From the NCBI GenBank assembly GCA_018061065.1, contig JAGOUV010000011.1, forward strand, positions 1 through 49,125: a stretch of DNA of 49,125 bases, read 5' to 3'. A model generated the notes under the pieces. The model saw only the letters and a list, made by a program, of their open reading frames with translations. It was not told the DNA's origin and searched no databases. A program made the position numbers and the translations under genes. Positions within the stretch are counted from its first letter, which is position 1. Each line of letters opens with the position of its first letter. Positions 15,820 through 35,300 of the stretch are shown here, piece by piece. The DNA comes from Candidatus Altimarinota bacterium. Its GTDB lineage: Bacteria; Patescibacteriota; Gracilibacteria; UBA1369; UM-FILTER-53-11.

Positions 15820-15867
15820 AATAGGATGTGCAGTTAAGCATGTTTTATTTTGTATGTTTTATTTACT

Positions 15868-17250: not shown

Positions 17251-17257
17251 TCACTAT

Positions 17258-17386: not shown

Positions 17387-17396
17387 TATTATTTTT

Positions 17397-17612: not shown

Positions 17613-17615
17613 TTT

Positions 17616-19958: not shown

Positions 19959-19989
19959 AAAAGGGTCTCGCTCCGGCGGGGCTCTTTTT
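19959..19989 (+). terminator. Intrinsic terminator after copA, probably bidirectional
   Basis: A 13-bp stem (AAAAGGGTCTCGC / GCGGGGCTCTTTT, with three G-U pairs) closes the loop TCCG and ends in five T. The A-run on the 5' side gives a T-run on the other strand, so it can also end the convergent membrane-protein operon whose stop is at 19988. Confidence 0.85.
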
Positions 19990-20290: not shown

Positions 20291-20778
20291 AACCCTGCTT
20301 GAAGCCATAAAGCTGTTCGCGCACCCCACGTAATCATGTAGCCCATGATTGCCATTGAGAATACAAGGAGCGCTGTTAAGCCTACAAATATAAGATATTT
20401 TTTCCTCAGTGCTTTGTTCTCAACTAATACATTTCCGCGTTTCTGAGCATAGACGGCAAGAAGGAAAATGAGAATTGGTAAAAATAAGAAGAGATGCTCT
20501 TTAGTCTCGGTAAATACGCCATGAGCCCATGCTTCAGGGCCGGCGTTGATAACAGGCTTTACCAGTGGATATAACAATAAATAGTAGCCACCTCCAAATA
20601 CCCACGCCATCATGACTCCTGCAAATGCGATCCACAAACTCGCTTTGAGCCATTTTAAACGGTCGGCGGAGAGGTGAAGGAGCTCCTTAAAAGTCCAAAG
20701 TAAACTAGCTCCGGCGAGCTCGCCACAGGCTACGTGAAGAAAAACGAATATTTGTGATTTTATGAGAAACAACGTCAT
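20287..20778 (-). CDS. Membrane protein, four to five membrane segments
   Basis: 163 residues from ATG 20778 (MTLFLIKSQIFVFLHVACGE). The frame is open to 20901, but that would run into the divergent U32 gene, and a promoter of the TGACACTTTT class ends 9 nt before 20778. His residues in or near membrane segments (VFLHVACGE, AWAHGVFTETKEH) are noteworthy and could bind heme or metal, but no cytochrome family was recognised. It is coupled by an ATGA overlap to the 100-residue membrane protein. Confidence 0.7.
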   Translation of the reverse strand: MTLFLIKSQIFVFLHVACGELAGASLLWTFKELLHLSADRLKWLKASLWIAFAGVMMAWVFGGGYYLLLYPLVKPVINAGPEAWAHGVFTETKEHLFLFLPILIFLLAVYAQKRGNVLVENKALRKKYLIFVGLTALLVFSMAIMGYMITWGARTALWLQAGL

Positions 20779-20787
20779 TAACTGTGA

Positions 20788-20816
20788 TAAACACACGAGC
20801 AGCAAAAAAGTGTCAT
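20788..20816 (-). promoter_or_regulatory. TGACACTTTT-class promoter for the membrane-protein pair
   Basis: On the minus strand ATGACA (20811-20816) followed by CTTTTTT, 17-bp spacing and TGTTTA (20788-20793), 9 nt before ATG 20778. It has the same architecture as the promoters at 24252-24280, 24298-24326 and 34292-34320. Confidence 0.55.
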
Positions 20817-20866
20817 CATGAAGTTCACTTGTCCGTTTTGGCTCACTGACGCTATACTGCGCCCGC

Positions 20867-22213
20867 ATGATTCCTGAACTTTTATTGCCCGCCGGAGACA
20901 TTGAAAAAATGAAGTTTGCATTTCAGTATGGAGCTGACGCGGTGTATGCCGGCGTGCCCATGCTTTCTTTGCGCACGAAAGAAAATAAATTCAATATTGC
21001 CATAGTACGTGAAGCGGTGGAATATGCCCGATCTCAGGGGAAAAAGATCTACCTCACCGTAAATATTTTTCCTCGTAACTATAAGATTCCGCTTTTTAAG
21101 GAAGCGATTCGTCCGATGGCTGATTTAAAGCCGGATGCTTTTATCGTGGCAGATCCAGGTGTGATTATGTTGTGTAAGCAATTTGCTCCGGAAATTCCCG
21201 TGCATCTTTCGGTACAGGCAAATAATGTGAACTGGGCTTCGGCGCAGTTTTGGCATAAACAAGGAGTAAGTCGTATTATTTTATCTCGTGAAATTTCTCT
21301 CGCAGAAATCAAAGGCATACACGAACACAACCCGACACTAGAGTTGGAATTTTTTGTGCATGGATCAATTTGTATGGCGTACTCAGGACGTTGTTTGCTC
21401 TCAAGCTACATGGCCTATCGCGATGCAAATCAGGGGATTTGTGCCCATAGTTGTCGCTGGGAATACAAGGTGCATAAGGCCGTAGATAAAAATACCGTCG
21501 ATGAGCAAGAGGCAATAGATAACGCATATAAAACGCTTGATGGTGATTATTACTTGGAAGAAATAGGACGGCCAGGTCAGTATTTCCAAATTGATGAAGA
21601 CGTTAATGGCACCTACATAATGAACTCTAAGGACATGTGTTTAGTCGAATATTTAAAAGAATTGAGAGACGCAGGCGTATGTAGTTTTAAAGTTGAGGGA
21701 CGAAATAAGACATTTTACTATGTGGCAACGGTTGCACGCGCTTATCGTAAAGCAATTGATGATATGCAGGCGGGGAAGCCATTTAATCGTGAGTATTTAA
21801 CTGAATTGGCCAAGACTTCTAATCGTGGATTTATTCCCGGATTTTTGGTTCATAACCCACGCGATAGTGCACAGGAGTATGAAAAAAGCCTTACCTATCA
21901 AACGCATGAGTTTATCGGTGTGGTGCGTAACGTAGTGAATAAAGAGGGAACTACGTTGTACGAAATTGAAGTTAAAGGCCGCCTCGATGCTCCTACAAGC
22001 TGTGAGATTCTCACTCCCGACGATACATTCGAGGCAAAGATAGAACGCTTTATTACAGTCGAAGGTAAAGAGGCCTCCGTTATCCATCCAGGCCAGGCAA
22101 AACATGTATTTATTGAACTACCTCGATCGGTGCCCGTAGGTTCCATATTGCGAAAAGAGAAAGATAAACACCATCCTTCTCCTGAAAGTCGTGGACCTAT
22201 TACGGTGTTATAA
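20867..22213 (+). CDS. trhP: Peptidase U32 family protein, TrhP/YegQ-like
   Basis: 448-residue U32 family protein. The N-terminal part is a TIM barrel starting ELLLPAGDIEKMKFAFQYGA with GADAVYAG. The U32 signature lies near residues 160-200, ELEFFVHGSICMAYSGRCLL followed by GICAHSCRW with cysteines thought to bind an iron-sulfur cluster; a later segment has FKVEGRNK. U32 proteins of this length (TrhP/YegQ) act in prephenate-dependent hydroxylation of tRNA uridine 34, and no longer look like peptidases. TATACT ends 8 nt before ATG, close to a leaderless arrangement. The 3' end overlaps the PAS-sigma gene by 14 bp. Confidence 0.9.
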   Translation: MIPELLLPAGDIEKMKFAFQYGADAVYAGVPMLSLRTKENKFNIAIVREAVEYARSQGKKIYLTVNIFPRNYKIPLFKEAIRPMADLKPDAFIVADPGVIMLCKQFAPEIPVHLSVQANNVNWASAQFWHKQGVSRIILSREISLAEIKGIHEHNPTLELEFFVHGSICMAYSGRCLLSSYMAYRDANQGICAHSCRWEYKVHKAVDKNTVDEQEAIDNAYKTLDGDYYLEEIGRPGQYFQIDEDVNGTYIMNSKDMCLVEYLKELRDAGVCSFKVEGRNKTFYYVATVARAYRKAIDDMQAGKPFNREYLTELAKTSNRGFIPGFLVHNPRDSAQEYEKSLTYQTHEFIGVVRNVVNKEGTTLYEIEVKGRLDAPTSCEILTPDDTFEAKIERFITVEGKEASVIHPGQAKHVFIELPRSVPVGSILRKEKDKHHPSPESRGPITVL

Positions 22214-23282
22214 TTTGCTTGCGCAATTTTCGTCGTGCGCGTGAAAGGTGAAGCTTGACCGCATTTTCGCTTTTCCCAATTTTTCTACCGATTTCTGCAA
22301 TAGCGAGGTCGTCTTTATATTTCATTGCTAGAATTTGTTGTTCCAGCAGTGGAAGAGATTCAATGTATTGCCACACCAATGCAAACTCAATTTTTCTTAT
22401 CATTGGATGATTTTCTTCGATACTTAAATGAGGAAGTTTTTCCAGTGAAATCGTTTTTGAACTGCGATAATAATTCACCAAAATATTATGTGCGGCTGCA
22501 AGTAGATAACTGAAGTAGCTTGTATGGGTAATAGTAAAGTGTGATAGTTGAGAAAGGGCTTTGCTAAAGGTCTCTTCCGTAAGATCTTCGGCAAGAACTG
22601 AGTCGCCTCCAAGATGATGAAGAAAATAATTAAAAATTTTAGGACGATATTTTTCATACAATGCTCCGTAGTTTTTCATGTCTGTTTGAGCATCGAGAAT
22701 TAACTGCTCATTTTCGATCTGCAGCTTGTCTCCTTCAGAAACAAAAATACGCCCCAATAGCATTGAGAGTTCCTCGTGGTCGTATTGTTTAAACAACTTA
22801 GTGGTTTTATGTTTGCTTGAGAGCCATGTTAAAACTTGTTGCATAAATTCGCTTGGACGCTTTTTTTTATCTTTCATAAAAGCAACGAATTCTTTCTTAA
22901 ATGCATCTGCCTGTTTTTTTGTAGTGAACTTCGGTTGAACGGCGATATAGTAGATAACCTTTCCTTTTTTATCGAGTATCGGCTGAATATGTAATGTTTC
23001 CATCATGCCAATCGAGTTTTTCTTTTTATTGTTAACTTCACCAACAAAAGGCATTTTTTTTATGGCCAGCGTCTCACTCATATTTTTATAGAAATCCTTC
23101 GACATATTTCCGCCCCATAGTCGTCCCGGAGTTTTTCCAATAATTTCTTTCATCAGAAATCCACTGCTTTTTTCTAACGACTTACTCGCATACAAAATAT
23201 GGGCATGAGAATCGGTAACGAGCAGGTATCCCGTCAAATTATCAAAATAACGCCGAATCTCAGTTAATGATCCAGATGGCAT
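22200..23282 (-). CDS. Sigma-70 family (ECF-like) sigma factor with N-terminal PAS domain
   Basis: 360-residue fusion. Residues about 5-115 are a PAS sensor (YLLVTDSHAHILYASKSLEK, EIIGKTPGRLWGG, PILDKKGKVIYYIAV). It lacks the photoactive Cys of LOV domains, so blue-light sensing by that route is unlikely. A helical linker follows. Sigma region 2 spans about 205-275 (YEKYRPKIFNYFLHHLGG, AEDLTEETFSKALSQL) and region 4 about 305-358 (LLEQQILAMKYKDDLAIAEI, then the HTH GKSENAVKLHLSRARRKLR). Regions 1.2 and 3 are absent, as in ECF factors. The start overlaps tspO by 23 bp. The order GerMN-tspO-sigma suggests sensing of a redox, tetrapyrrole or envelope signal. Confidence 0.9.
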   Translation of the reverse strand: MPSGSLTEIRRYFDNLTGYLLVTDSHAHILYASKSLEKSSGFLMKEIIGKTPGRLWGGNMSKDFYKNMSETLAIKKMPFVGEVNNKKKNSIGMMETLHIQPILDKKGKVIYYIAVQPKFTTKKQADAFKKEFVAFMKDKKKRPSEFMQQVLTWLSSKHKTTKLFKQYDHEELSMLLGRIFVSEGDKLQIENEQLILDAQTDMKNYGALYEKYRPKIFNYFLHHLGGDSVLAEDLTEETFSKALSQLSHFTITHTSYFSYLLAAAHNILVNYYRSSKTISLEKLPHLSIEENHPMIRKIEFALVWQYIESLPLLEQQILAMKYKDDLAIAEIGRKIGKSENAVKLHLSRARRKLRKQIITP

Positions 23283-23736
23283 AATTTAAATATGATGCAA
23301 AGCTAACCCAAGCTAAATAAGGGATGAGCAATAGTCCTGCTGGCCGTGATAATTTGTAAAAAACAACGATGGTCCACCCAATAGAAAACCAAAGCGCAAT
23401 AATATCAATAAGGGCAAGGATAGGACTATGGAGACCAAAAAATAAGAGTGACCACAGGACATTGAGACCCAATTGAATGCAAAATATAAGTGCTGCTTCT
23501 TTTACGCGCCTTTCTTTAACACCCTTACGTAAAACTAGAAATAATGAAACTCCCATAAGGAAATAGAGTGCCGTCCATACGGGACCAAAAACCCAGCTCG
23601 GGGGAGAGAGGAGCGGTTTTTGTAGGGTCGCATACCAGGTGGGAATCGAAGGTATGGTAAATAAAGAGCCTACAATCCCTGCTAGTTCTACCACAACAAC
23701 ACAGAACGCCAGCTGAACTAATCTGATAGGTTTCAT
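23260..23736 (-). CDS. tspO: TspO/MBR family membrane protein
   Basis: 158-residue, five-helix translocator-protein family member, normal length. Family motifs are WYATLQKPLLSPPSWVFGPV, WTALYFLMG, LNVLWSLLFFG and the C-terminal LAWVSFASYLNYAIW, which line the porphyrin/ligand pocket. Bacterial TspO proteins bind porphyrins and take part in oxygen- or light-dependent and stress signalling. Here it is the middle gene between a GerMN protein (22-bp gap) and the PAS-sigma factor (23-bp overlap), so it may supply or modulate the signal read by that sigma factor. Confidence 0.93.
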   Translation of the reverse strand: MKPIRLVQLAFCVVVVELAGIVGSLFTIPSIPTWYATLQKPLLSPPSWVFGPVWTALYFLMGVSLFLVLRKGVKERRVKEAALIFCIQLGLNVLWSLLFFGLHSPILALIDIIALWFSIGWTIVVFYKLSRPAGLLLIPYLAWVSFASYLNYAIWIIN

Positions 23737-23758
23737 ATACCCTAGTCTACTCTTTATT

Positions 23759-24244
23759 TTAGGGTTGGAATAATTCTTCCGGTTTGAACTGTACTCGTAT
23801 AACGCCGCTCAATTGTTGTGCGGTTGCCTCTATCTGGAACCACAATATGCCTACGCGGCATGAGCCGCCCCCTGTTTTATTTTCAGGATCAGAAAATTGT
23901 AAGGTTAGGATCCCATTTTCTAAAGTAGTTGAGAGAAGGCGAAACCCCGGTAGCGGATATTCGGTGGTAATTCCTTCGGCTTTTTCTTGAGGAGTTAATT
24001 CGCCTTTCAGTAAAAGATTAATGGTGTCTTCAATTGGTGTTGCCGTTTCTGGAATGCTGCGTTGTACGGCAACTAATCCATTTCTACTGCACTCAATATT
24101 GCCAATGGCATTTTTGTCTTTGTCTGCATTGTAGTAGTACAGCGAAACGTTAGTCTGGGGAATTTCCTTATCTCCCATTAAAAATGGAACAAGAAAAAAT
24201 ATAAAAACTGCAATCCCTATTATGATGATCATAAGGCGGTTCAT
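23759..24244 (-). CDS. GerMN domain protein, membrane anchored
   Basis: 161 residues: a signal anchor (MIIIIGIAVFIFFLVPFLMG) and then one GerMN domain, with VSLYYYNADKD, INLLLKGELTPQEK, GILTLQFSDP, GGSCRVGILWFQIEATAQQL and a final FQP. GerMN domains occur in spore germination proteins and in lipoproteins of other phyla and bind unknown cell-wall or small ligands. It is the first gene of the operon with tspO and the PAS-sigma factor. The start is 7 nt after a TGT-type -10 box, compatible with leaderless mRNA. Confidence 0.85.
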   Translation of the reverse strand: MNRLMIIIIGIAVFIFFLVPFLMGDKEIPQTNVSLYYYNADKDKNAIGNIECSRNGLVAVQRSIPETATPIEDTINLLLKGELTPQEKAEGITTEYPLPGFRLLSTTLENGILTLQFSDPENKTGGGSCRVGILWFQIEATAQQLSGVIRVQFKPEELFQP

Positions 24245-24251
24245 ACTATTA

Positions 24252-24280
24252 CATACACTTTAGAAGCCAAAAAGTGTCGT
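24252..24280 (-). promoter_or_regulatory. TGACACTTTT-class promoter for GerMN-tspO-sigma operon
   Basis: On the minus strand ACGACA (24275-24280) followed by CTTTTT, 17-bp spacing and TGTATG (24252-24257), 7 nt before the ATG at 24244. It faces the sister promoter at 24298; together AAAAGTGTC and GACACTTTT form a 9-bp inverted repeat. Confidence 0.55.
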
Positions 24281-24297
24281 TACGCACCCCTTGTCAA

Positions 24298-24326
24298 GTG
24301 ACACTTTTAGTGCGTTAGACTGTTGT
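24298..24326 (+). promoter_or_regulatory. TGACACTTTT-class promoter for the His-rich peptide
   Basis: GTGACA (24298-24303) followed by CTTTT, 17-bp spacing and TGTTGT (24321-24326), 7 nt before ATG 24334. It diverges from the promoter of the sigma-factor operon. Confidence 0.55.
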
Positions 24327-24333
24327 TACTTGT

Positions 24334-24498
24334 ATGAATGACACTATTTCTCATCGCAAGCATCGAGCAATCGTCAAGGCGCCTCACGTAGAGCTTGAGG
24401 AGAAAGTGAGTTGTGGCACCTGGTGTAAGTCATGGAAGCATCCTCATGGCAAGCAGCCGCATGTGCATGTTATTACCTTTAGTCATGTGGCACATTAA
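24334..24498 (+). CDS. 54-residue histidine-rich peptide
   Basis: Short ORF from ATG 24334. The product is soluble and basic, with 10 histidines in 54 residues and one CxxxC: EEKVSCGTWCKSWKHPHGKQ, then PHVHVITFSHVAH. The Cys and His spacing suggests binding of zinc, copper or heme, not a known zinc-finger family. A promoter fits exactly before it, and it ends 12 bp before the phosphoribosyltransferase gene, so the two are likely co-transcribed. It is divergent to GerMN-tspO-sigma. No family was recognised. Confidence 0.6.
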   Translation: MNDTISHRKHRAIVKAPHVELEEKVSCGTWCKSWKHPHGKQPHVHVITFSHVAH

Positions 24499-24510
24499 GT
24501 AATTATCTTT

Positions 24511-25164
24511 ATGCCATTATATTATTCACGTGCGGAGGCAGGAGAGCGTCTTGCTCAAAAAATCCCTGATTGGTACTGCAAACCTGATACGTTTGTCGTG
24601 GGGTGTTCGTTAAATGGCATGCCGGTAGCTGAGGGGTTAGCCCGCGCGCTCAATGTTCCGCTCGAATATATTGCTGTTTGTAGAATTGTTGCTCCGTTCG
24701 AGCCTGAAAAAACGATAGGTGCGGTTGATGATCAGGGCAATGAAACATGGCATAAGGAGATGGTTGAACGCTATCACGCATCAGTTGAATTTCTAAAAAA
24801 TAGCAGTAAGGAAGCCGCATTAGAAGCGCAGCGCCGCATGAAGTTGTTTCGACCAGGCCGACCGCCGCTCAATCTATACGGAAAAAATGTCATACTAACC
24901 GATGATGGTACTGCTTCTGGATATACGATGTTAGCGGCGGTCGGTGCGGCGCGCAGTTACGGTGCAGAAAAGGTTATTGTGGCTGTTCCGGTGGGCACAG
25001 AAGAGGGAAGGCGTTTATTGCAACCTGTTGCCGATGAGGTAGTTCACCTGTACACACCGCGCATTCTCAATCCGGTACGTTCGTTTTATCAGGAATTTCC
25101 TATGATTATAGATCAGGACGTCGTTTTTCTCATGGAACGACATGGGGTATCAAAAAGTGCCTAA
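24511..25164 (+). CDS. Predicted phosphoribosyltransferase (COG1926 type)
   Basis: 217-residue type I PRTase-fold protein. The PRPP-binding loop is VILTDDGTASGYTMLAA (about 128-144), and the flexible hood and early strands are YYSRAEAGERLA and FVVGCSLNGMPVAEGLARAL. The insert FLKNSSKEAALEAQRRMKLF and FRPGRPPLNLYGK matches the COG1926 group, whose substrate is not known; it is not a classical purine or pyrimidine enzyme. It follows the His-rich peptide and precedes pilB. Confidence 0.85.
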   Translation: MPLYYSRAEAGERLAQKIPDWYCKPDTFVVGCSLNGMPVAEGLARALNVPLEYIAVCRIVAPFEPEKTIGAVDDQGNETWHKEMVERYHASVEFLKNSSKEAALEAQRRMKLFRPGRPPLNLYGKNVILTDDGTASGYTMLAAVGAARSYGAEKVIVAVPVGTEEGRRLLQPVADEVVHLYTPRILNPVRSFYQEFPMIIDQDVVFLMERHGVSKSA

Positions 25165-25170
25165 ATATGG

Positions 25171-25176
25171 TATAAT
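25171..25176 (+). promoter_or_regulatory. Extended -10 box before the pilus operon
   Basis: TGGTATAAT, 26 nt before the pilB start codon; no good -35 box. It is the likely promoter of the type IV pilus operon. Confidence 0.5.
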
Positions 25177-25202
25177 TTCAGGAAACACAAAAACAAAATA
25201 AT

Positions 25203-26912
25203 ATGGAGATAAGTGATAAAAAACTGGCGGATTTGCTCATACAAAAAGGCCTCATTACTGAAAAGGTCCTAAAATCTTTTTTAGAGCAGGCTGAGGTGAA
25301 GGGAATGTCTCTTGAAAATATACTTTTTGAGCGTGAAATTATCCCTGATGAAAAGTTAGGTGCGGTCATGGCGGAACTGTATGAAGTTCCTTTTGTTAAG
25401 GTTTCTGAACGCATTATTCCAGAAGATTTGCTGCGCACTGTTTCATATACGCTCGCATCGACACAATTCCTCATGGCGTTTGAAAAGAAAGCAAATGAGT
25501 TGAGCATTGCGATGAATAATGTGAAAAACTATGAAATCGCTAATTTTTTGGAACGAAAAACTGGACTTGTGATTAAGCGATTTTATGCGACCAAAAGAGA
25601 TATCAAACAGGCGCTAAAATTTTATAATAGAGACGTAAATGAAAAATTTAATAAGTTACTAAAAAGCGGTCTTGAAGATCCGACTAAAATCGAGTCACTA
25701 AAAGACACGGCAAAAATTCTCGACACGATTATTTTGTTTGCGTATCAGAATGATGCTTCCGATATTCATATTGAGCCGCATAAGAATTTTCTTGGTATTC
25801 GATATCGTATTGATGGCTTACTGAAGACCATTGCGGAGCTTCCTGTGAGCATTCTTGATCTTATTACGACACGTATAAAAGTGCTTGCGAATTTGCCTAC
25901 TGATGAACATCGCGCAGCTTTGGACGGACGCTTTAAAATCGAACTTGAAAACAATGAAATCACTTTGCGTGTTTCTATCGTTCCTACCTATGAAGGAGAA
26001 AAAACGGTTATGCGTGTTTTGAGTAGTTCGAATCAGGAATTAAATATAGAAACACTTGGATACTCTGAAAAAAATATGCAGATTATTCATAATAATATCG
26101 TAAAAACAAATGGTATGATTTTGATTACCGGACCTACGGGTTCTGGTAAGACAACAACTCTGTACTCAATTCTTAAGTTGCTGAATTCTCCGGAGATAAA
26201 TATCTCGACTATTGAAGATCCAGTGGAGTATCGACTTGAGGGGGTTAATCAGATTCAGGTAAATCCAAAGACAAATTTAACATTTTCTACTGGTCTGCGT
26301 TCACTTCTTAGACAAGACCCCGATGTGGTTATGGTGGGTGAAATTCGTGATCAAGAAACGGCTGGAATCGGTATTAACGCTGCGCTTACGGGACATCTCG
26401 TGTTAGCGACATTGCATACCAATGATGCCGCAAGCACACTGCCACGTCTTATCGATATGGGTATTGAACCTTTTTTGATTTCAGCAACGGTTAAGGTGGT
26501 GATTGCACAACGACTGGTTCGTATTATTTGCCCAAAATGTAAGATTTCCTATGAACTTACTCTTGAGCAGATACAGTCTATTTGTACTAAATTTAATATA
26601 AATCAAAATCTGAAGGCGCTCTTTGAGGAAGCTGCAAAGAAGGTCTCAAATGAAAAAAATACGGTTACTTTTTATAGAGGTGCTGGATGTGCAACGTGTG
26701 GGCAGACGGGATTTAAGGGACGTTTTTCAATTGCTGAAGTTATTGATGTATCAGACACTATTAAGAAATTACTCCTCACTGAAAACTCTCCTCAACTGCT
26801 TGAAGAAGCGGCAAGAAAAGAAGGCATGGTGCCTATGCTCGTTGATGGAATGAATAAAGTTTTGGCGGGTGTAACAACTATCGAAGAAGTTTTGCGCGTC
26901 ATGCGTTCATAA
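25203..26912 (+). CDS. pilB: Type IV pilus assembly ATPase PilB
   Basis: 569-residue GspE/PilB family hexameric ATPase that powers pilus extension at the inner face of the membrane. The N-terminal MshEN-like domain (1-150) is followed by DASDIHIEPHKNFLGIRYRI, Walker A GPTGSGKTTT (about 310), the Asp box STIEDPVEYRLEGVNQIQVN, Walker B DPDVVMVGEIRD, the His box TGHLVLATLHTND, and a four-Cys zinc site (CPKC ... CATC). Length and order are normal. It is the first gene of an operon running to 34217. No PilT retraction ATPase is in the window. Confidence 0.96.
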   Translation: MEISDKKLADLLIQKGLITEKVLKSFLEQAEVKGMSLENILFEREIIPDEKLGAVMAELYEVPFVKVSERIIPEDLLRTVSYTLASTQFLMAFEKKANELSIAMNNVKNYEIANFLERKTGLVIKRFYATKRDIKQALKFYNRDVNEKFNKLLKSGLEDPTKIESLKDTAKILDTIILFAYQNDASDIHIEPHKNFLGIRYRIDGLLKTIAELPVSILDLITTRIKVLANLPTDEHRAALDGRFKIELENNEITLRVSIVPTYEGEKTVMRVLSSSNQELNIETLGYSEKNMQIIHNNIVKTNGMILITGPTGSGKTTTLYSILKLLNSPEINISTIEDPVEYRLEGVNQIQVNPKTNLTFSTGLRSLLRQDPDVVMVGEIRDQETAGIGINAALTGHLVLATLHTNDAASTLPRLIDMGIEPFLISATVKVVIAQRLVRIICPKCKISYELTLEQIQSICTKFNINQNLKALFEEAAKKVSNEKNTVTFYRGAGCATCGQTGFKGRFSIAEVIDVSDTIKKLLLTENSPQLLEEAARKEGMVPMLVDGMNKVLAGVTTIEEVLRVMRS

Positions 26913-26931
26913 TAATGTTCCAATAATTTTC

Positions 26932-28140
26932 ATGCCTAAATATAATTATATTCTCAGTAACTCAGTCGGAGTGAAGACAAGAGGCTTCATCGTTGCTTCC
27001 AATCCAGAAGCGGTTAAATTGAAGTTGCAGGAAGAAGGGCAGATTATTATTTCAATTATCGAGGAGCAGAAATTGCATACTTTTTTCTGGAAAAAACCGG
27101 GATTAAGTTTTGTGGAAATAATGATGTTTGTTAGACAGCTGGGTACGATGATTAAAGTCGGAGTTCCGATTATGGAAGCTCTTGAGATTATTATCAGTCA
27201 AACGCGCGAAAAAAAGAATCGTAAAATGTATGAGAATATTTTAGGAATGATTCAGTCGGGACAGACGTTGTCAAAAAGTCTAGCCGAGTACGGTACGATT
27301 TTTCCCGATGTTATTATCAAAATGATTGAGACAGGGGAGGAGAGTGGCACGCTTAACGATGTAATGGAATATCTCAATGTTCAGCTTGAAAAAGAATATG
27401 AAATTCGCAAAAAACTTGTTTCTGCATTTATTTATCCTGCCGTAATTATTGGTCTTACGCTTATGATGACTATGGGTATTGTAATTTTTATCATGCCAAA
27501 GATTACTAAAATCTTTTCATCATTTAAGATTAAATTGCCTTTTATAACCCAAATTTTGATTGACTTCAATACGTTTGTTACGCAAAAGCCTTTCTTAACC
27601 GTATTTATTTTATTTGCCACTATTTTCTTTTTCAAAACTATATTTAAGCTCAAAGCACTTAAACCTTTTTGGAATAGACTTTCCATCTATCTACCTGTAT
27701 TTGGAAGAATAACTGTTTCGGCAAATTTAGCGCGCTTTAATAGAACCTTAAGTTCATTACTGCAGAGTGGAACATCGATCGTGAAAGCTCTGGAAATTGT
27801 GACTAATACCGTCTCAAATGACTTGTATAAAAAGGCAATACAAGCAGCATCTAATAAGGTAGAACAAGGAGGAAAATTGGGTGAAAGTTTGGAGAATAAT
27901 GAGAAGCTCTTTCCCGTATTAGTTACTAAAATGTTGTATATCGGCGAGAAAACAGGAAGTTTGGAGACAACGACAAATCGCTTGGCTACGATGTATGAAC
28001 GCGAGGTTGATAATTTAACGAGAAATCTTTCCGTATTACTTGAGCCGCTCCTTTTGATTTTTATGGGTGTGCTCGTGGGAGGTATCGCACTCGCAATTAT
28101 TCTTCCCATTTATCAGCTGCCGAACTTATTGCAAAAATGA
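26932..28140 (+). CDS. pilC: Type IV pilus inner membrane platform protein PilC
   Basis: 402-residue GspF/PilC family protein. It has two repeated cytoplasmic helical domains, FVRQLGTMIKVGVPIMEALE and FNRTLSSLLQSGTSIVKALE, each with the T2SSF signature, and three membrane segments (near 170-190, 220-240 and 370-392). It forms the platform turned by PilB. The stop overlaps the next start as ATGA, so translation is coupled. Confidence 0.95.
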   Translation: MPKYNYILSNSVGVKTRGFIVASNPEAVKLKLQEEGQIIISIIEEQKLHTFFWKKPGLSFVEIMMFVRQLGTMIKVGVPIMEALEIIISQTREKKNRKMYENILGMIQSGQTLSKSLAEYGTIFPDVIIKMIETGEESGTLNDVMEYLNVQLEKEYEIRKKLVSAFIYPAVIIGLTLMMTMGIVIFIMPKITKIFSSFKIKLPFITQILIDFNTFVTQKPFLTVFILFATIFFFKTIFKLKALKPFWNRLSIYLPVFGRITVSANLARFNRTLSSLLQSGTSIVKALEIVTNTVSNDLYKKAIQAASNKVEQGGKLGESLENNEKLFPVLVTKMLYIGEKTGSLETTTNRLATMYEREVDNLTRNLSVLLEPLLLIFMGVLVGGIALAIILPIYQLPNLLQK

Positions 28141-28601
28141 ATATCCAAGACAAAAACAAAACAGCTTTTTCTTCACTCGAAATTATCATTACAATAAGCA
28201 TTATTGCAGTGGCATTTACTTTTTCGATGCTCTTTTATCAGACCTCGCAGCTCCGGGCGGATTTAAATACGCAAACTGCTTTGATAATTTCTCATGTGCG
28301 TCTCGCACAAAGCAATGCCGCTTCTGGAGCGACAGATCAACCGATGGGAATTCATTTTGCTGCTGATTCATTTACCACATATATAGGACCTGTTTATGAT
28401 CCCAACAGTGCATCAAATGTAGTTGTTACCTTGCCTTCAACATTAACCATTACTGCCATAACTTTGGCGGGAGGGGGGAGTAATATTTTATTTACATCTC
28501 CGCAGGGACAGACGGTTAATTCAGGAAGTTTCACTTTGTATTCAAGTAGTTTAGATACATCAAATATCATAACCATCACTTCCCTTGGCACGATCAATTA
28601 A
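28137..28601 (+). CDS. Minor pilin, GspH/FimT-like
   Basis: 154-residue pseudopilin. The type III signal is MNIQDKNKTA|FSSLEIIITI: the residue before the cut is Ala instead of Gly, while Glu5 of the mature protein is kept. The hydrophobic helix (FSSLEIIITISIIAVAFTFS) is followed by a beta-rich domain with LAQSNAASG and FTSPQG. The first place in a run of four minor pilin genes fits the H position of the H-I-J-K order in type II secretion and pilus systems. Confidence 0.85.
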   Translation: MNIQDKNKTAFSSLEIIITISIIAVAFTFSMLFYQTSQLRADLNTQTALIISHVRLAQSNAASGATDQPMGIHFAADSFTTYIGPVYDPNSASNVVVTLPSTLTITAITLAGGGSNILFTSPQGQTVNSGSFTLYSSSLDTSNIITITSLGTIN

Positions 28602-30426
28602 CCATAAAGGGTTTTCACTTATTGAAATGCTTTTAGCAATGATGGTGTTCGGCTTGTTTGCTACGGCGGTTTTTGGTGTTGCTCTTGATACGAGCCAGCG
28701 AGATGCAAAAGTAGAGTTGGAAAATCAAGTTTTGGCTTATGCTCAAGAAGGACTAGAGGCGGTGCGTAATATGCGTGATAGAAATTATCTACTCGTCACC
28801 AACGGTGATCACGGACTTAAACTCGAAAATGATGTATGGAGTTTTATAGCTGCTCCTGAAACAATCGATGCTTTTTATGAACGTACCATAACGGTTGATG
28901 ATGTGTATCGCGATGGAACCGGCGCTATTGCGGCAGTGGGAACGTTTGATCCAGATACAAGAAAAATAACTTCAACGGTAAACTGGGATTACAACGGCAT
29001 ATTTTCACGGAGTACTTCACTGGTAATGTATCTTTCAAACTGGAAAGGAAGCGATCATATAAGTACGACATGTACGGAGTTTAATGTAGGAACATATACT
29101 GACACGGAAGCGATTGAAACGTCTGCTCCTCCAGCAGATAACTGTGCAGTTAAACTTAATGTAATTGAATCAGCGAGCGAGGGTTTTACTTCCTCTGATC
29201 TTGGTGATCACGGCAATGATGTAGTGGTCGATGGGGACTATGCATATGTGGCAAATAATAAGACGCAGACGGGACTTACCATTGTTAATGTTGCGAATAG
29301 AAGTGCTCCCGTTATTACTAAAAATATCGATATTGGTGCAAAAGGTAGGCATGTAGTTAAAGATGGAAACTACGCATTTGTAGGAGTAGAGAAGTCATCA
29401 AAAGGTCTGGCCATTGTTGATGTGAGTGTACCGGGCACCGCTTTTGTTACGTCAACACTTAATGTAGGAGACTACGGCAACGACCTGCGCGTTTCAGGCA
29501 ATTATTTATATATGGGAGTACATCAGGAGACGAATAGTTTTAAAGTAATTAATATTGCCAATAAAAGTGCACCTTCGGTAGCAGGTCAGCTTAACTACAA
29601 TGACATCGTTCAGGCGATAGAGTTGCATAATAATTATGCTTATTTAGGACTCAGTGATGATTCACAAAGTTTTAAAGTGGTGGATATTACCAATCCTGCA
29701 GCTCCGGTTAAAGTTACTTCCCTCGATGTCGATGAGGAAGTTAATGCGATCGCTATTAGCGGATACTATGCTTTTGTAGGGATAGAAAACTCGTCAAATT
29801 CGCTCAAAGTAGTAGATATTTCAAATCCCGCAGCCCCTGTTGTTGTGGCCTCACTTAATGTAGGTGGTGAGATTCAAGATCTCTCTATTTTTGGTGATTA
29901 TCTGTATGCAGCAATTGATGAACACGATGCTGCCCTTGGTGCAATCAATATATTAAATCCGTTAGCACCCTATCTTGCGTATAACAAAGATCTCGCAGCA
30001 AAAGCCAGCGGTATTGATTCAGATGCTTCAAGTATTTTCATAACGATCGATGTAAATAATAAAGGCTTGTTGATAACGGGTACTACGCTCATTGAAACAT
30101 TGGCTAACGGGACATTTATATCAAATAAAATTGATACGGGCAGTACCTCTACGCGTTACAACTATATTACGTGGGATCAAGTCACGACGCCTGGAGGCGC
30201 TATTACTATGCAGCTGAGAACAGCAAGCTCGCTCGCAGGGCTTGATACGGCTGTATGGGCGGGAAGCGATGGAACCAACAGCACCTATTATGAAAATCCG
30301 CGTACTGCTATCCAATTAGCTCCGGGTAGTACCGGTCCACGTTATTTCCAGATGAAGGCATTTATAAGCTCAAACGGAGTGAACTCACCATTATTAGAAA
30401 GCATCAAAGTTAACTATACCCCATGA
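28585..30426 (+). CDS. Minor pilin fused to a seven-repeat LVIVD beta-propeller
   Basis: 613 residues. The N-terminus MARSINHKG|FSLIEMLL is a prepilin signal with Glu5, followed by the pilin helix and a GspI-like head (to about 165). From about 205 to 510 come seven repeats of about 44 residues of the LVIVD type; repeat cores read TGLTIVNV, KGLAIVDV, NSFKVINI, QSFKVVDI, NSLKVVDI and ALGAINI, the last is partial, each followed by a GxYAYVG-like strand. A beta-sandwich-like tail ends the protein. TTG 28585 is the start; it overlaps the previous gene by 17 bp. As the I-type minor pilin it should sit in the tip complex, so the propeller is a candidate adhesin, comparable in logic to PilY1. Confidence 0.88.
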   Translation: MARSINHKGFSLIEMLLAMMVFGLFATAVFGVALDTSQRDAKVELENQVLAYAQEGLEAVRNMRDRNYLLVTNGDHGLKLENDVWSFIAAPETIDAFYERTITVDDVYRDGTGAIAAVGTFDPDTRKITSTVNWDYNGIFSRSTSLVMYLSNWKGSDHISTTCTEFNVGTYTDTEAIETSAPPADNCAVKLNVIESASEGFTSSDLGDHGNDVVVDGDYAYVANNKTQTGLTIVNVANRSAPVITKNIDIGAKGRHVVKDGNYAFVGVEKSSKGLAIVDVSVPGTAFVTSTLNVGDYGNDLRVSGNYLYMGVHQETNSFKVINIANKSAPSVAGQLNYNDIVQAIELHNNYAYLGLSDDSQSFKVVDITNPAAPVKVTSLDVDEEVNAIAISGYYAFVGIENSSNSLKVVDISNPAAPVVVASLNVGGEIQDLSIFGDYLYAAIDEHDAALGAINILNPLAPYLAYNKDLAAKASGIDSDASSIFITIDVNNKGLLITGTTLIETLANGTFISNKIDTGSTSTRYNYITWDQVTTPGGAITMQLRTASSLAGLDTAVWAGSDGTNSTYYENPRTAIQLAPGSTGPRYFQMKAFISSNGVNSPLLESIKVNYTP

Positions 30427-30932
30427 AGAAAAGAATAAAACTTTACGGTACGACCTTAATTGAAATGCTCATTTATTTTTCACTCATCACGGTGATGATG
30501 GTTGCTGGTGTAAATTTTTCGCTTCATATTCTCACGGCGAGCAAGCAGTCGGATAATTTTCACGAGTTACAATCTACGATGAACTTTATTGCCGATCGTC
30601 TGATCTCGACGATTGAAACGGCTGAAAGTGTCCATGGCGATAGTGTTTTTGATGTTGATCAAGGAACAATTTCACTTACTGTTTCAAATCCGGCAAACTC
30701 ACCAACTAAGCTCTATTTGCTCAATGGAAATGTATATATCCAGCAAGGCGCCGCCGCAGCTGTTCAGTTGAATTCAACTGCAGTTACCTACACAAAGTTA
30801 CGATTTCATAAAATTTCATCTTCAAAAACTCCCGATCAAATTACCCTTGATATGCAGTCATCTATTGATAAGGACATCGCCAGTCTCGATAAGCAAATTT
30901 CATTTCACACCTCAATATCTTTACGCAAATGA
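30423..30932 (+). CDS. Minor pilin, GspJ-like
   Basis: 169-residue pseudopilin with the signal MKKRIKLYG|TTLIEML (Thr at position 1, Glu5 kept) and the hydrophobic helix LIYFSLITVMMVAGVNFSLH. The head domain has the ELQSTMNFIADRLISTIETA helix typical of J-type pilins. The start overlaps the propeller-pilin stop as ATGA and its own stop overlaps the next start in the same way, so the I, J and K positions are translated in fixed ratio. Confidence 0.85.
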   Translation: MKKRIKLYGTTLIEMLIYFSLITVMMVAGVNFSLHILTASKQSDNFHELQSTMNFIADRLISTIETAESVHGDSVFDVDQGTISLTVSNPANSPTKLYLLNGNVYIQQGAAAAVQLNSTAVTYTKLRFHKISSSKTPDQITLDMQSSIDKDIASLDKQISFHTSISLRK

Positions 30933-31327
30933 AACGTATAAAACCTATTCATGGCTCGATTGCGCTCATCAGTATTCTGATTATTTCAGCTTTTACATTG
31001 ATTCTAGTGGTTGGTATGTCTGAAACCAATATTCTCACTTCAACCTATTGGCTCAATGCAAACGCGAGCAAAAACACCTATTATGGCGCAGAATCTTGCC
31101 TTGAGGAAGGTATGAAACGATTAAAAGCAGATGCGGCTTTTGTCACAACAACCCTTACTCTGGACGCTGCTTCTTCATGTACGATCACTTTTGCGGGAGG
31201 TGCAGTTAAGACCATCTCAATAACTGCTCAGTATGACAACTACACGCAACACTTCTCGGGTCAGGCGTCATTCACTCAAAATGGAACGGCAAACAATGTA
31301 ATCCTTTTAAGTTGGGGCAAAATTTAA
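30929..31327 (+). CDS. Minor pilin, GspK/PilX-like, without Glu5
   Basis: 132-residue pseudopilin with MKRIKPIHG|SIALISILII. There is no Glu at mature position 5, the hallmark of GspK-type pilins that cap the pseudopilus. The helix continues ISAFTLILVVGMSETNILTS. The head has YYGAESCLEEGMKRLK, and Cys in CLEE and SSCTI may form a disulfide. It is smaller than GspK of type II secretion. Confidence 0.82.
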   Translation: MKRIKPIHGSIALISILIISAFTLILVVGMSETNILTSTYWLNANASKNTYYGAESCLEEGMKRLKADAAFVTTTLTLDAASSCTITFAGGAVKTISITAQYDNYTQHFSGQASFTQNGTANNVILLSWGKI

Positions 31328-31339
31328 TATCATGATCGT

Positions 31340-32974
31340 ATGGATTTGTTTCAAAGAAAAATTGTAGGAATAGATTTCCATGATTACTCTGCGCAGTTGA
31401 TTGAGTTAAATTTAACAAGCGGAAAATTATTTCTAGAAGCATACAGTCGTGTATTGATTCCTCCTTCAGTTATCGTAAATGGTGAAATTAAAAAAGAAGA
31501 AGAGCTGAAAGAGCTCATCACCGCTCTTTTTCAACACGCTAATCCGCATCCTATTTTAGAAAAAGAAATTGTCGTTGTTTTTCCTTCGACGCTTGTTTTT
31601 AATCATATTTTCACCTTCCCGGCCAATTTCACCGAAGACGAAATTCGCAAAGCAATTCCCTTTGAAGCAGAAACAGTCATTCCGTTTGCAATCACTGATA
31701 TGTACTGGGATTTCATTATGCTTGATGCGCCACCATTAGAAAAAGGCAAACCTCATTCAGTATTGTTTTCTGCAATTGAGCGAAAGACCGCAGATCGTTA
31801 TCGCGGTGTACTAGAGTCGATGGGGCTTACCCCGTATTTCTTCGGAGTTGAGGCGGAATCGCTTCACTATGCCCTTTTAAAGCAGACAGGAAATACAAAA
31901 AGTTCTCTCATCGTTGATATTAATACGCTCTCAACCAACTATTTGCTTATTAAAAATAATGTTATCACGGATTATTTTAGCTCCAATGAAGGCGGGCAGT
32001 ATCTCGTGCAAATGTTGAGTGAAAAATATCAGATCCAACGCGAATCAGTAATTGCCGATATAGAAAAAGAGTCATTGGATGAGAAGTATCTTCCCACGAT
32101 CACTGCTTTCTTAGAAGAAAAGTATCGCGTTGCTCAGAAAATAATCGATGCCAATGAGAAAAAGCATCCCGGACTTGTAGTAGATAATATTTTCCTGACT
32201 GGTGAGTTTCTCGATATACCGAACTATATGGAAACCGCTAAGCGATTCTTCCCCAGTAAAGACATTGAAGTAGGGGATCCACGCAGCAACCTCACGATAC
32301 GTGCGGAGAATTTTACTATGCCGAATGCTCAGAAAGATATCTCGGCACAATATTATGTATTTTTTGTTCATTCCATCGGAATAGTTGCAAAGGCGTTACT
32401 CGCAAAGGCACACGAGGGTATTAATTTACTTCCCGATCAACTTAAACGAAATTTCCACGATAAAAAAATAAAATTACTTGCTGCATTTTTTGCCATTGGA
32501 CTTACTGCTGTGTCATTGGTCGTTGCTACGTTATTTATGCATCGATATATTTTGCTTAATTATGAAAGGCACAGTCTTGAAATCCAAAAAGCATCGGTAA
32601 CACAGGTGTTATACGGGACGCGATATCAAGAAATTCGTGATCAGATAGTCTCTTTTAATAAAGAGGTGGATGAGTTAAGTACGATTGATAATTCGCTCTT
32701 TTCTGTGCCCCTTGTGCTCAATAAAATACAAGCGATTATGCCTGTGGGGATAAAAATTACGGGCGTGACCTATGCGGATGAATCACTGACGGTTGAGCTT
32801 AATGGTGTTGCACATACGCGTGAAGATCTATTAAAAGCTCATCGTGACTTGCAGAACGCAGAGTTTATAGAAGAAGTTATTACTCCGGTCTCCAGCTACG
32901 ATGAAAAATACGACGCCTCTTTCTCTATACGATTAAAACTTAAATTTACCAATCTTCCTCGTTATGGAAATTGA
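31340..32974 (+). CDS. pilM: Fused PilM-PilN pilus assembly protein
   Basis: 544 residues. Residues 1-350 are an actin-like PilM: IVGIDFHDYSAQLIEL at the start, VVFPSTLVFNHIFTFP, AIPFEAETVIPFAI, and the nucleotide-site strands SLIVDINTLSTNYLLI. Residues about 370-540 are PilN: KLLAAFFAIGLTAVSLVVAT as the single membrane helix, a periplasm-side coiled region and a ferredoxin-like end (GIKITGVTYADESLTVELNG). In most species these are two proteins that bind each other; a one-chain version is known as GspL in type II secretion. It connects the PilB/C motor to the PilO-like protein, whose gene overlaps by 11 bp. Confidence 0.88.
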   Translation: MDLFQRKIVGIDFHDYSAQLIELNLTSGKLFLEAYSRVLIPPSVIVNGEIKKEEELKELITALFQHANPHPILEKEIVVVFPSTLVFNHIFTFPANFTEDEIRKAIPFEAETVIPFAITDMYWDFIMLDAPPLEKGKPHSVLFSAIERKTADRYRGVLESMGLTPYFFGVEAESLHYALLKQTGNTKSSLIVDINTLSTNYLLIKNNVITDYFSSNEGGQYLVQMLSEKYQIQRESVIADIEKESLDEKYLPTITAFLEEKYRVAQKIIDANEKKHPGLVVDNIFLTGEFLDIPNYMETAKRFFPSKDIEVGDPRSNLTIRAENFTMPNAQKDISAQYYVFFVHSIGIVAKALLAKAHEGINLLPDQLKRNFHDKKIKLLAAFFAIGLTAVSLVVATLFMHRYILLNYERHSLEIQKASVTQVLYGTRYQEIRDQIVSFNKEVDELSTIDNSLFSVPLVLNKIQAIMPVGIKITGVTYADESLTVELNGVAHTREDLLKAHRDLQNAEFIEEVITPVSSYDEKYDASFSIRLKLKFTNLPRYGN

Positions 32975-33521
32975 ATTACGACCAAATACGGCAAAAAGAA
33001 TTTTTTCTGTGACATTTATTCTTATAGTTATTGGTTCTTTTATTATATTGTTAATTGGACGCGCAACTGCACGCATCCATGACGAAACTAAAGAGCTAAA
33101 GACATTTTTGGCAACATCAGATAATATTAAGCAAAATTTCGAACGCAGTCTTAAAGTCTATACTGCAAGTACACAATTAATCATTCAGCATCTTGCTAAG
33201 TTACGACCGCATGACGAAGAATCATTCATTGAATTCATATCGAAAATTGAAGCAATTGGACAAAAACTGGATATTAAAATTGAACTGCAGTCACTCGATA
33301 GTGCCAATACAAAAGCCATTGGAGCGATGAAAACATTAGATTATCGCGTTTTATTTAATGGAACAATGCAAGATTTAGAAAACGTTATTAATGAGGTTCA
33401 GAAATTGCCGTATTATGTAAAAGTGAGTGAGATTCGGTACCTCACTCCAGAGCTGGCTCGTGAAACTGACAAAGCTGATGCTCAGAACATTAATCTTAGA
33501 ATTAATTTATTTATCAAATAA
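32964..33521 (+). CDS. pilO: PilO-like pilus assembly protein
   Basis: 185-residue protein with a short cytoplasmic start, one membrane helix (FSVTFILIVIGSFIILLIG), a coiled-coil (about 35-75) and a C-terminal ferredoxin-like domain with LDYRVLFNGTMQDLENVINE, typical of PilO. It follows the PilM-PilN fusion with an 11-bp overlap, the usual gene order. Sequence likeness is modest, so the call rests on position and architecture. Confidence 0.75.
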   Translation: MEIELRPNTAKRIFSVTFILIVIGSFIILLIGRATARIHDETKELKTFLATSDNIKQNFERSLKVYTASTQLIIQHLAKLRPHDEESFIEFISKIEAIGQKLDIKIELQSLDSANTKAIGAMKTLDYRVLFNGTMQDLENVINEVQKLPYYVKVSEIRYLTPELARETDKADAQNINLRINLFIK

Positions 33522-33532
33522 AGGTTACTGAT

Positions 33533-33727
33533 ATGGATGTGCAAAAATACAAAGATTATTTTATATTCATAGCGTCCTGCGTTTGCTTTATAGTAAGCAT
33601 TATATACGCAGCGATGGTCTATGTTGATTGGAACACACCAGCTAAGGATAAAAACTACGCACTTGAAGTATCACTACCTATTTTGGATTTAGAAAGGTAT
33701 TCAAAGTTGTCAAAATCGGCTGAATAA
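33533..33727 (+). CDS. Small single-pass membrane protein of the pilus operon
   Basis: 64 residues: short N-terminus, one membrane helix (FIFIASCVCFIVSIIYAAMV) and a short external tail ending in charged residues. It lies 11 bp after the pilO-like gene and before the major pilin. It might play the part of a PilP remnant, but there is no sequence support for that. Confidence 0.6.
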   Translation: MDVQKYKDYFIFIASCVCFIVSIIYAAMVYVDWNTPAKDKNYALEVSLPILDLERYSKLSKSAE

Positions 33728-33770
33728 TGTTAGTGTAAACCAGGTTTATTTATTATTCCTTATCATCTTT

Positions 33771-34217
33771 ATGAAAAAGTTACTCAATAAAGGTTTCACG
33801 CTCGTTGAGGTTCTTTTGGTAGTCGTTATCATCGCAATTCTAGCTGGTGTAGTTATCGTTGCTATTAATCCAGGACGACAAATCTCACAGGCAAATAATA
33901 CTCAGCGCAGCAGCGATGTACGTGCTGTTCTTGATGCAGTTTCACAGTACGCTATTGATAACAGAGGAGCACTTCCTACCACAATTACATTGGTTCCAAC
34001 TGCAATGGGTAGCGCAGCTGGTCTTATTGATGTTTGTGCAGACATCGTTCCTACATATACAGCAGCTATGCCTTACGATCCGACTGCAGCAGGTGCACAT
34101 TTCACAAGCTGTGCTGACTACGCAACAGGCTATAACATCTCAAAGAATGCTACAGGCCGCGTAACTGTTTCTGCACCTAGTGCTGAATTGACTGCAACGA
34201 TCAGCGTAACTAAATAG
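33771..34217 (+). CDS. pilA: Major type IV pilin
   Basis: 148-residue prepilin with the classic signal MKKLLNKG|FTLVEVLLVV (Gly8, Phe9, Glu13) and a long hydrophobic helix up to NPGRQISQANNTQR. The small head domain has two cysteines (VCADIV and TSCADY) that likely form the D-region disulfide. Codon choice is narrow and regular, as expected of a highly expressed gene, and a good terminator follows at once. It is the last gene of the pilus operon and may also have its own promoter in the 43-bp gap before it. Confidence 0.93.
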   Translation: MKKLLNKGFTLVEVLLVVVIIAILAGVVIVAINPGRQISQANNTQRSSDVRAVLDAVSQYAIDNRGALPTTITLVPTAMGSAAGLIDVCADIVPTYTAAMPYDPTAAGAHFTSCADYATGYNISKNATGRVTVSAPSAELTATISVTK

Positions 34218-34245
34218 TAGTTTCGCGCGATAGAGTAAAAGTTAG

Positions 34246-34279
34246 AAAGGGGAGGGGCGTATGCTTCTCCCTTTTTTTG
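34246..34279 (+). terminator. Intrinsic terminator after the major pilin
   Basis: AAAGGG, one bulged G, AGGGGC pairs with GCTTCTCCCTTT around the loop GTAT, followed by seven T. It closes the pilus operon. Confidence 0.8.
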
Positions 34280-34291
34280 TTTTATTTGAAT

Positions 34292-34320
34292 GTGACACTT
34301 TTGTTTAACTTAACTGTTTA
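34292..34320 (+). promoter_or_regulatory. TGACACTTTT-class promoter before the 87-residue membrane protein
   Basis: GTGACA (34292-34297) followed by CTTTT, 17-bp spacing and TGTTTA (34315-34320). ACTGTT at the -10 region is shared with the promoter at 24298-24326. A leader of about 30 nt precedes ATG 34358. Confidence 0.5.
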
Positions 34321-34357: not shown

Positions 34358-34621
34358 ATGAAAATCAATCAACTTACCACAGGGCTTATGTTGGGTGCAT
34401 TTGTAGGTGGCATTCATCTATTATGGAGTGTCATTGTGGCGGTGGGGCTCGCTCAACCCCTAGTAGACTTCATTCTCTCGGTTCATTTTCTCAACAATCC
34501 CTTTACTGTAGCGCAGTTTGACCTCTGGTTTGCCTTTTTGCTTGTTGCTATTACTTCTATTGTTGGGTTCGTCGTAGGCTGGTTTTTGGCCTTTTTATGG
34601 AACCGTTTTCAGACTAAATAA
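34358..34621 (+). CDS. Small membrane protein, two segments
   Basis: 87-residue integral membrane protein with segments at about 8-32 and 56-80 (LWFAFLLVAITSIVGFVVGW). A Phe/Trp-rich end (FLAFLWNRFQTK) follows. It stands alone between the pilin terminator and the RNA gene and has its own promoter. Function unknown. Confidence 0.75.
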   Translation: MKINQLTTGLMLGAFVGGIHLLWSVIVAVGLAQPLVDFILSVHFLNNPFTVAQFDLWFAFLLVAITSIVGFVVGWFLAFLWNRFQTK

Positions 34622-34636
34622 GGTTATATATGGTCA

Positions 34637-34665
34637 TTGACAATATATTCTAAAAAGTATATAAT
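34637..34665 (+). promoter_or_regulatory. Perfect sigma-70 consensus promoter
   Basis: TTGACA (34637-34642), exactly 17 bp, TATAAT (34660-34665). It is the only full-consensus promoter I found in the window. No protein gene follows, only the structured RNA region that ends in a terminator at 35286. Confidence 0.85.
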
Positions 34666-34671
34666 AATAGT

Positions 34672-35286
34672 GTAATTGTTCATTAAAAATAAATATCAAA
34701 AAATGTTTAGGAAGGGTTGAGCAGCTAAGTATAGTGCGATTTGGCTGTTGTACCCTTCCTAAAATGTTCCTTCTCACGCACAGTGAGGAGGTCATGTAAG
34801 GGAACCTGACATTAATCTTACCTTTCGGTGGGACGCTCTCATATTTCGCAAGAAATAGAGGGACGGTTATCAGGGGCATTTCCTTTTTATCAGTATTCTC
34901 GGGTAGCCTCGAAGGATATGATAAAGAGAATTGGATTTGATCCAATGTTTATTTTCTTGGATGCTAACGATCTTCGTACCGCAAGGTTCAGAAGAAGAAA
35001 GTGTTCAGTGGTCGAGCAAGAGTGTTGGTGACGATACTCAAGCAAACATCATGGTGACGATAAGAATTTGGGAGAGAGTCTTCCAATGCACTATCGCTCG
35101 CGAAATACTCATTGTTTGCCGGTCGCTCGCAAGAGTCGCCGCGTGAAGCAATTCAATTATTCAGAACGGGTGCAGTGCAATAGCTGTAACTATTCTGAGT
35201 CACTTGTCTCAAACTCTTTTATATGACACCGGAATATTTTAGCCAGGTGCTACAAAAAAGCCATCTTTAATACGGATGGTTTTTTT
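34672..35286 (+). ncRNA. Large structured RNA of unknown class, about 615 nt
   Basis: Between a perfect promoter and an intrinsic terminator there is no convincing ORF, but many paired elements are visible: a 12-bp helix TTTAGGAAGGGT / ACCCTTCCTAAA (34706-34763) with an inner 8-bp helix; CCTTCTCAC-GCACA-GTGAGGAGG (34769-34791); TATTTC-GCAA-GAAATA with a GNRA loop (34840-34857); CTTTTTATCA / TGATAAAGAG (34883-34928) enclosing TCGGG-TAGC-CTCGA; ATTGGAT-TTG-ATCCAAT (34930-34946); ACC-GCAA-GGT inside TCTTC / GAAGA (34971-34995); TTGGGAGA-GAG-TCTTCCAA (35068-35086) inside GCAAACA / TGTTTGC (35042-35119). The direct repeats GGTGACGATA (35027, 35053) and TCGCTCGC (35094, 35123) are also seen. I found neither RNase P core motifs nor a tRNA-like end. 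Confidence 0.65.
35254..35286 (+). terminator. Intrinsic terminator of the structured RNA, bidirectional
   Basis: AAAAAAGCCATC pairs with GATGGTTTTTTT around a 9-nt loop. T-runs on both strands let it also end the convergent minus-strand gene whose stop is at 35301. Confidence 0.85.
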
Positions 35287-35300
35287 GCGTTCAAGTGACT

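Follow-up and report, generated by a model that had tools for sequence, protein, structure and literature searches.

Four promoter-like sites, S1 to S4, in a 49,125-nucleotide stretch of DNA from a Candidatus Altimarinota bacterium (contig JAGOUV010000011.1; the whole of this stretch is termed the window) are, to judge from their sequence, most probably promoters of one class, YGACACTTTT-N12-TGTWKD, used by a sigma factor of the extracytoplasmic function (ECF) type that is encoded at 22200-23282 and carries an N-terminal PAS domain (the PAS-sigma). The class combines a GACAC -35 element, a T-tract and a -10 element of the TGT/CGT type, with 16 bp from GACAC to TGT. The original prediction made for this DNA had likewise proposed a single promoter class read by the adjacent PAS-sigma, and it is supported by the restriction of the motif to the locus of the sigma gene, by the presence of the motif at PAS-sigma loci of other families, and by its link to one clade of sigma factors and their recognition helix. 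Very little is known of gene regulation in such ultra-small bacteria, most of them uncultured; genomes of this phylum are of about 1 Mb, consistent with the earlier label of candidate phyla radiation (CPR).

Four sites of common build

The sites are as follows, each with its -35 hexamer, spacer and -10 hexamer:

S1, 24252-24280, minus strand: ACGACA-CTTTTTGGCTTCTAAAG-TGTATG, upstream of the GerMN-tspO-sigma operon; predicted transcription start (+1) on the ATG at 24244
S2, 24298-24326, plus strand: GTGACA-CTTTTAGTGCGTTAGAC-TGTTGT, upstream of a His-rich open reading frame (ORF) and a phosphoribosyltransferase gene; predicted +1 on the ATG at 24334
S3, 20788-20816, minus strand: ATGACA-CTTTTTTGCTGCTCGTG-TGTTTA, 37 nt before the start of a pair of membrane protein genes
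S4, 34292-34320, plus strand: GTGACA-CTTTTGTTTAACTTAAC-TGTTTA, directly behind a pilin terminator, with a leader of ~30 nt before a membrane protein gene

Direct reading confirmed the coordinates, strands, common build and 17-bp spacing first reported for these sites. Each consists of NYGACA, 17 bp, and then a TGT-type hexamer, with the same spacing in 4/4, and between the two blocks only one further column, a T, is invariant. S1 and S2 lie back to back in a 90-bp gap. All four sites point into a likely gene and none (0/4) lies inside one; from the Y of YGACAC to the A of the start codon the distances are 35, 35, 37 and 65 nt for S1, S2, S3 and S4, respectively. With +1 at the usual distance, the GerMN and His-rich mRNAs (S1 and S2) are therefore predicted to be leaderless or nearly so.

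The motif is far more frequent in the window than expected. YGACACTTTT occurs four times against 0.35 expected, a number reached in 0/100 shuffles, and for YGACACTTTT-N12-TGT 400 dinucleotide shuffles of the window averaged 0.005 copies and never gave more than one. When the genome (1.30 Mb, 98.5% complete) was searched for YGACACTTTT followed by TGT at a spacing of 12-14, five exact matches were obtained, every one at spacing 12, and none for a reversed control pattern. As the original prediction had anticipated, placement ahead of genes prevails: four of the five copies are so placed, all within 13.5 kb around the PAS-sigma gene, and the fifth (C18:55046) falls inside a 281-aa ORF. The probability of at least four copies in one window is ~1e-7 against the genomic background. 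Matches with one mismatch also lie inside ORFs genome-wide, and at up to two mismatches (53 matches against 36 in the control) no wider regulon is detectable in the genome; the regulon that can be detected by motif therefore comprises these four transcripts.

Since YGACA is similar to TTGACA and both classes have a spacing of 17 bp, S1 to S4 might be taken for weak housekeeping promoters with a TTGACA-like -35 and a poor -10. This is very improbable, given that the conserved part consists of GACAC(C)TTTT and YGTTW, with no TATAAT, and is clustered near one sigma gene, whereas the window's example of the housekeeping class, at 34637 and 320 bp from S4, is a perfect TTGACA-N17-TATAAT. Homologues of the gene behind S4 occur in 11 other genomes; some match DUF5676, and several have TATAAT-type elements upstream, e.g. 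TGCTATAAT, at about the place of S4. On this comparison the S4 gene has apparently switched from one promoter class to another in the lineage of the window.

The sigma clade and its loci in other families

The sigma part of the PAS-sigma matches Pfam Sigma70_r2 (208-276) and r4_2 (303-353) above cut-off and holds no other domain, so that regions 2 and 4 are present without regions 1 and 3, as in ECF factors; the structural chains that match it are SigW and another ECF. ECF promoters have AAC at -35 and CGT at -10 and are often autoregulated (PMC8103513), and a T-tract directly behind the AAC helps recognition (PMC6056542). In ten sites across genomes GACAC-T4 and YGTTW stand 16-17 bp apart, which is the arrangement of an ECF-type promoter; the position of the AAC is occupied by CAC in the window sites and by AAC in genome G646. 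The TGT-type -10 singled out by the original prediction is thus present, but it is not of a special type: it is the TGT form of the usual CGT-type ECF element, and across relatives the spacing is 16-17.

In a tree of 41 sigma domains, all nine of the motif-linked sigmas (9/9) fall into one ECF clade of 12 members (support 100/99). Its remaining members are those of G646, where a variant motif, TGAAACCTTTT, lies at the sigma stop codon, and of G001 and G031, where no motif was found. Among the 29 ECFs outside the clade, three of them from the genome of the window, none is linked to the motif (Fisher 6e-7 for clade against other ECFs, a value inflated by relatedness). A region-4 helix, S(E/H)NA(V/I)KL, is common to the clade except for G031 (SVNSVKL). 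Recognition helix and -35 sequence are thus correlated, which does not in itself amount to binding. It is quite improbable that S1 to S4 are instead promoters of another ECF of the same genome, with the PAS-sigma a mere neighbour or target. Other ECFs do exist, the genome having given six matches to the sigma query in all; but three of them have different region-4 helices (KKEEGAIRT, NCTENNVGV and ERSQASLRI), stand outside the motif-linked clade and have no copy of the motif near them, and in other families, too, the motif accompanies the PAS-sigma clade.

Few genomes encode a full-length PAS-ECF fusion. Among 353 genomes of the class G001 alone does so, apart from the genome of the window; further fusions were found in G445, G512 and G420 in a 380-genome sample of the phylum, and in G697, G696 and G705 among 144 relatives of G420. 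In 5/5 of the PAS-sigma genomes of family f83 (G420, G697, G696, G705 and G512), YGACACCTTTT-N11/12-YGTTW adjoins the sigma stop codon or overlaps it, often taking in its TGA, and faces the next gene, nrdD, which is followed by nrdG. Across 41 f83 genomes the motif occurs in all five with the sigma and in 2/36 without it, both of the two inside genes. A ten-base block, GACACCTTTT, and GnGTT are invariant in the f83 alignment, where mean column identity is 60%; because GACACCTTTT is coding in G420 but spans the stop codon in the other f83 genomes, protein conservation does not explain its invariance. In G445 (family f94) TGACACC-N15-TGTTTA lies 110 bp before nrdD on the PAS-sigma contig, ~9.2 kb from the PAS-sigma, with the intervening stretch masked in the data. 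Read at first as a terminator hairpin, this site was reinstated in view of its distance of 110 bp from nrdD. Of the 17 other matches, two, in G754 and G778, coincide with the stop codon of PAS-less ECF sigma genes or lie no more than ~10 bp from it; matches in G701 and G645 were discounted, being inside genes.

The sites might alternatively be operators, bound by a repressor or activator at an ACAC-N15-GTGT dyad, with the promoters elsewhere. In favour of this, ACACTTT and AAAGTGT in S1 make up a perfect dyad of 7 bp, and all four window sites share the symmetry of ACA..TGT. The dyad breaks down, however, in S2 to S4, and likewise in the G705 and G512 copies, which read CGTTT; only one side shows a conserved T-tract; the sites are oriented towards start codons, and spaced from them, as promoters are; and no TATAAT promoter was found at the S sites. 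The operator explanation has accordingly been given only a very small chance.

Several observations weigh against reading the motif as the promoter of the PAS-sigma clade. The five f83 genomes are related, so that 5/5 does not amount to five independent events. Among the 144 relatives of G420 the raw motif count (22) is not above that of the reversed control (33), so that the position of the motif, and not its count, is the evidence; across 117 class-level relatives of the window genome the count is at chance, and none of the motif loci fetched from these holds an ECF gene. The G445 site is also part of a terminator-like hairpin (AAAAAAAGGTGTATGACACCTTTTTTT), and G754 and G778 have no clear protein gene behind the motif. 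The motif had been expected in relatives that keep the sigma gene, and this holds for the five f83 genomes and G445 but not for G001, which belongs to the same family as the genome of the window, has a PAS-sigma of 31% identity and a locus with no synteny with the window, and lacks any such motif genome-wide: an unexplained exception. Finally, the four window targets are mostly lineage-specific and no target gene recurs in the nrdD-type regulons; as the two sets of targets do not overlap, rapid turnover of the regulon would be implied.

Some further features of these loci may be recorded. At L145, L146 and L144 the predicted nrdD message starts with a hairpin, GGTACGGAggacaTCCGTACC, that takes in a GGAGG ribosome-binding site and extends to the start codon; the hairpin just before nrdD in G705 is a different one. 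In G754 (L162, ~1660-1690) the only start-like ORF behind the motif encodes a 9-residue peptide, MAKKKGGKK, before a strong terminator, and on this arrangement a small RNA or peptide may be expressed from the motif. G418 (L143, 8.0-9.0 kb of the oriented locus) encodes a stand-alone 157-aa PAS protein, close to the PAS domain of the PAS-sigmas and without a sigma domain, divergent to a DoxX gene.

Genes behind the sites

The genes that S1 to S4 precede in the window are:

19988-20290, minus strand: membrane protein, 100 aa; 4-bp overlap with the gene of the 163-aa membrane protein
20287-20778, minus strand: membrane protein, 163 aa, of no family and nearly orphan
22200-23282, minus strand: PAS-ECF sigma factor, 360 aa (PAS 8-115, region 2 208-276, region 4 303-355)
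23260-23736, minus strand: TspO/MBR protein (PF03073, 1.4e-52); 23-bp overlap with the sigma gene
23759-24244, minus strand: GerMN-domain protein (PF10646, 2.8e-9), first gene of the sigma operon
24334-24498, plus strand: His-rich small ORF, 54 aa
24511-25164, plus strand: phosphoribosyltransferase-domain protein (PF00156, 3.1e-12), starting 12 bp after the His-rich ORF
34358-34621, plus strand: protein with two transmembrane segments, 87 aa, some of whose homologues match DUF5676

The regulon as originally drawn up, with GerMN, TspO, the sigma factor, the His-rich peptide and three membrane proteins, is retained, and the phosphoribosyltransferase gene, which is probably in the same transcript as the His-rich ORF, should probably be added. 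No homologue of the His-rich ORF was found in 195 relatives, and the ORF may act as a leader instead of encoding a protein. The membrane pair likely starts at the ATG at 20778 and not in the longer open frame to 20901, because S3 would otherwise sit within that frame.

Convergent with this pair is a metal cluster (15850-19937, plus strand) encoding an HMA-DsbD_2 membrane protein, an HMA (CopZ-like) protein and a copper-type P-type ATPase. A copper-regulon reading, suggested by these CopA, CopZ-like and DsbD-like genes beside S3, was rejected, there being no motif ahead of them. On the far side of the S4 gene, the stretch 34637-35290 (plus strand) begins with the housekeeping promoter mentioned above and continues for ~614 nt without a long ORF, with a terminator hairpin at its end. 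These ~614 nt fold far better than shuffled sequences (z -9.4, 20 shuffles) and give no meaningful Rfam match, which makes the stretch a candidate large structured RNA.

The PAS domain, the proposed circuit and known systems

The structure nearest to the PAS domain is the flavin adenine dinucleotide (FAD) PAS of NifL (2GJ3; E 8.9e-9, template modelling score 0.82 on target), the domain itself being predicted with a local confidence score (pLDDT) of mostly 70-87. Its best sequence matches are NifL, MmoS and Aer, which are flavin redox sensors (PMC9668731). The flavin-contacting asparagine of these proteins (N102 in NifL, N85 in Aer; PMC12540587) has a counterpart in the PAS-sigma of the window (P0001), where N85 aligns with NifL N102, and in 6/7 homologues, 7/8 overall. 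Against a flavin pocket like that of NifL, only N102 is clearly kept among the pocket residues listed in PMC12540587, E70 being replaced by Pro and S39 by Leu. A LOV photoreceptor was ruled out, as the PAS domain is without any cysteine. Close relatives of the sigma were found neither in viral contigs nor in one scan of genome contigs, which gave weak matches to the PAS region only, in Thiomargarita and Sulfurimonas.

The operon consists of the GerMN, TspO and sigma genes and lacks an anti-sigma gene, which makes the fused PAS the obvious switch; a co-encoded anti-sigma factor is not a defining ECF feature in current classifications (PMC8103513). It is proposed that the PAS-sigma recognises S1 to S4 and that its N-terminal PAS replaces a separate anti-sigma factor as an on-board switch, gating sigma activity, by way of a flavin, in response to the redox state of the cell or to oxygen. 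In the genome of the window the sigma would activate its own GerMN-tspO-sigma operon, the divergent His-rich ORF with the phosphoribosyltransferase gene, the membrane pair and the DUF5676-like protein; in other families the promoter of the clade, at or near the sigma stop codon, would drive nrdD-nrdG where the downstream gene is known. Autoregulation, also part of the original prediction, is inferred for the window genome, where S1 heads the sigma operon; it was not seen in f83, where the site is placed after the sigma gene and directed towards nrdD.

Redox or oxygen as the signal of the PAS-sigma is the preferred reading, held tentatively, because of the flavin-type PAS, the link to nrdD, the presence of nrdG behind nrdD and the DoxX genes near the sigma in G420, G512, G697, G696 and G001. 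The product of nrdD, anaerobic ribonucleotide reductase, is an oxygen-sensitive enzyme. It is possible, on a still more cautious estimate, that the phylum contains a family of one-component redox-sensing sigmas (flavin PAS plus ECF) with a promoter code of their own, GACAC(C)T4-N11/12-YGTTW, which in some lineages set the anaerobic synthesis of deoxynucleotides and in others control a lineage-specific envelope or tetrapyrrole/metal set, and replace separate sensor, anti-sigma and regulator genes. A sigma with a built-in PAS sensor would be a one-protein device leading from signal to promoter, and the nrdD link suggests how such cells might adjust DNA-precursor synthesis to oxygen. The circuit is compact: sequence suffices to read its sigma, likely sensor, promoter sequence and targets and to compare them between families.

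Among known systems, the ECF factors (group IV), such as the sigma-W class, resemble the PAS-sigma in having only regions 2 and 4 in the sigma part; in their promoters, with an (A/C)AC -35, a T-tract behind it and a CGT/TGT-type -10 16-17 bp away, as at the window sites; and in their autoregulated operons, a feature that the sigma operon headed by S1 would probably share. Unlike the sigma-W class, the window sites have GACAC for GAAAC, the operon is without an anti-sigma gene, and a PAS domain is fused on at the N-terminus. NifL, MmoS and Aer provide the best sequence and fold match to the PAS domain and have the flavin-contacting asparagine in common with it, but several pocket residues differ, and the output of the PAS-sigma is a fused sigma and not a kinase, NifA binding or chemotaxis. 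No description of an N-terminal PAS-ECF fusion was found in the ECF literature examined. The nearest parallels in architecture are ECF41 with its SnoaL_2 domain, CorE with its metal-sensing tail and the N-terminal extensions of Planctomycetes ECFs, in all of which a regulatory domain lies within the sigma polypeptide (PMC8999054, PMC8103513), as it does in the PAS-sigma; in contrast to those, the extension here is an N-terminal soluble PAS domain.

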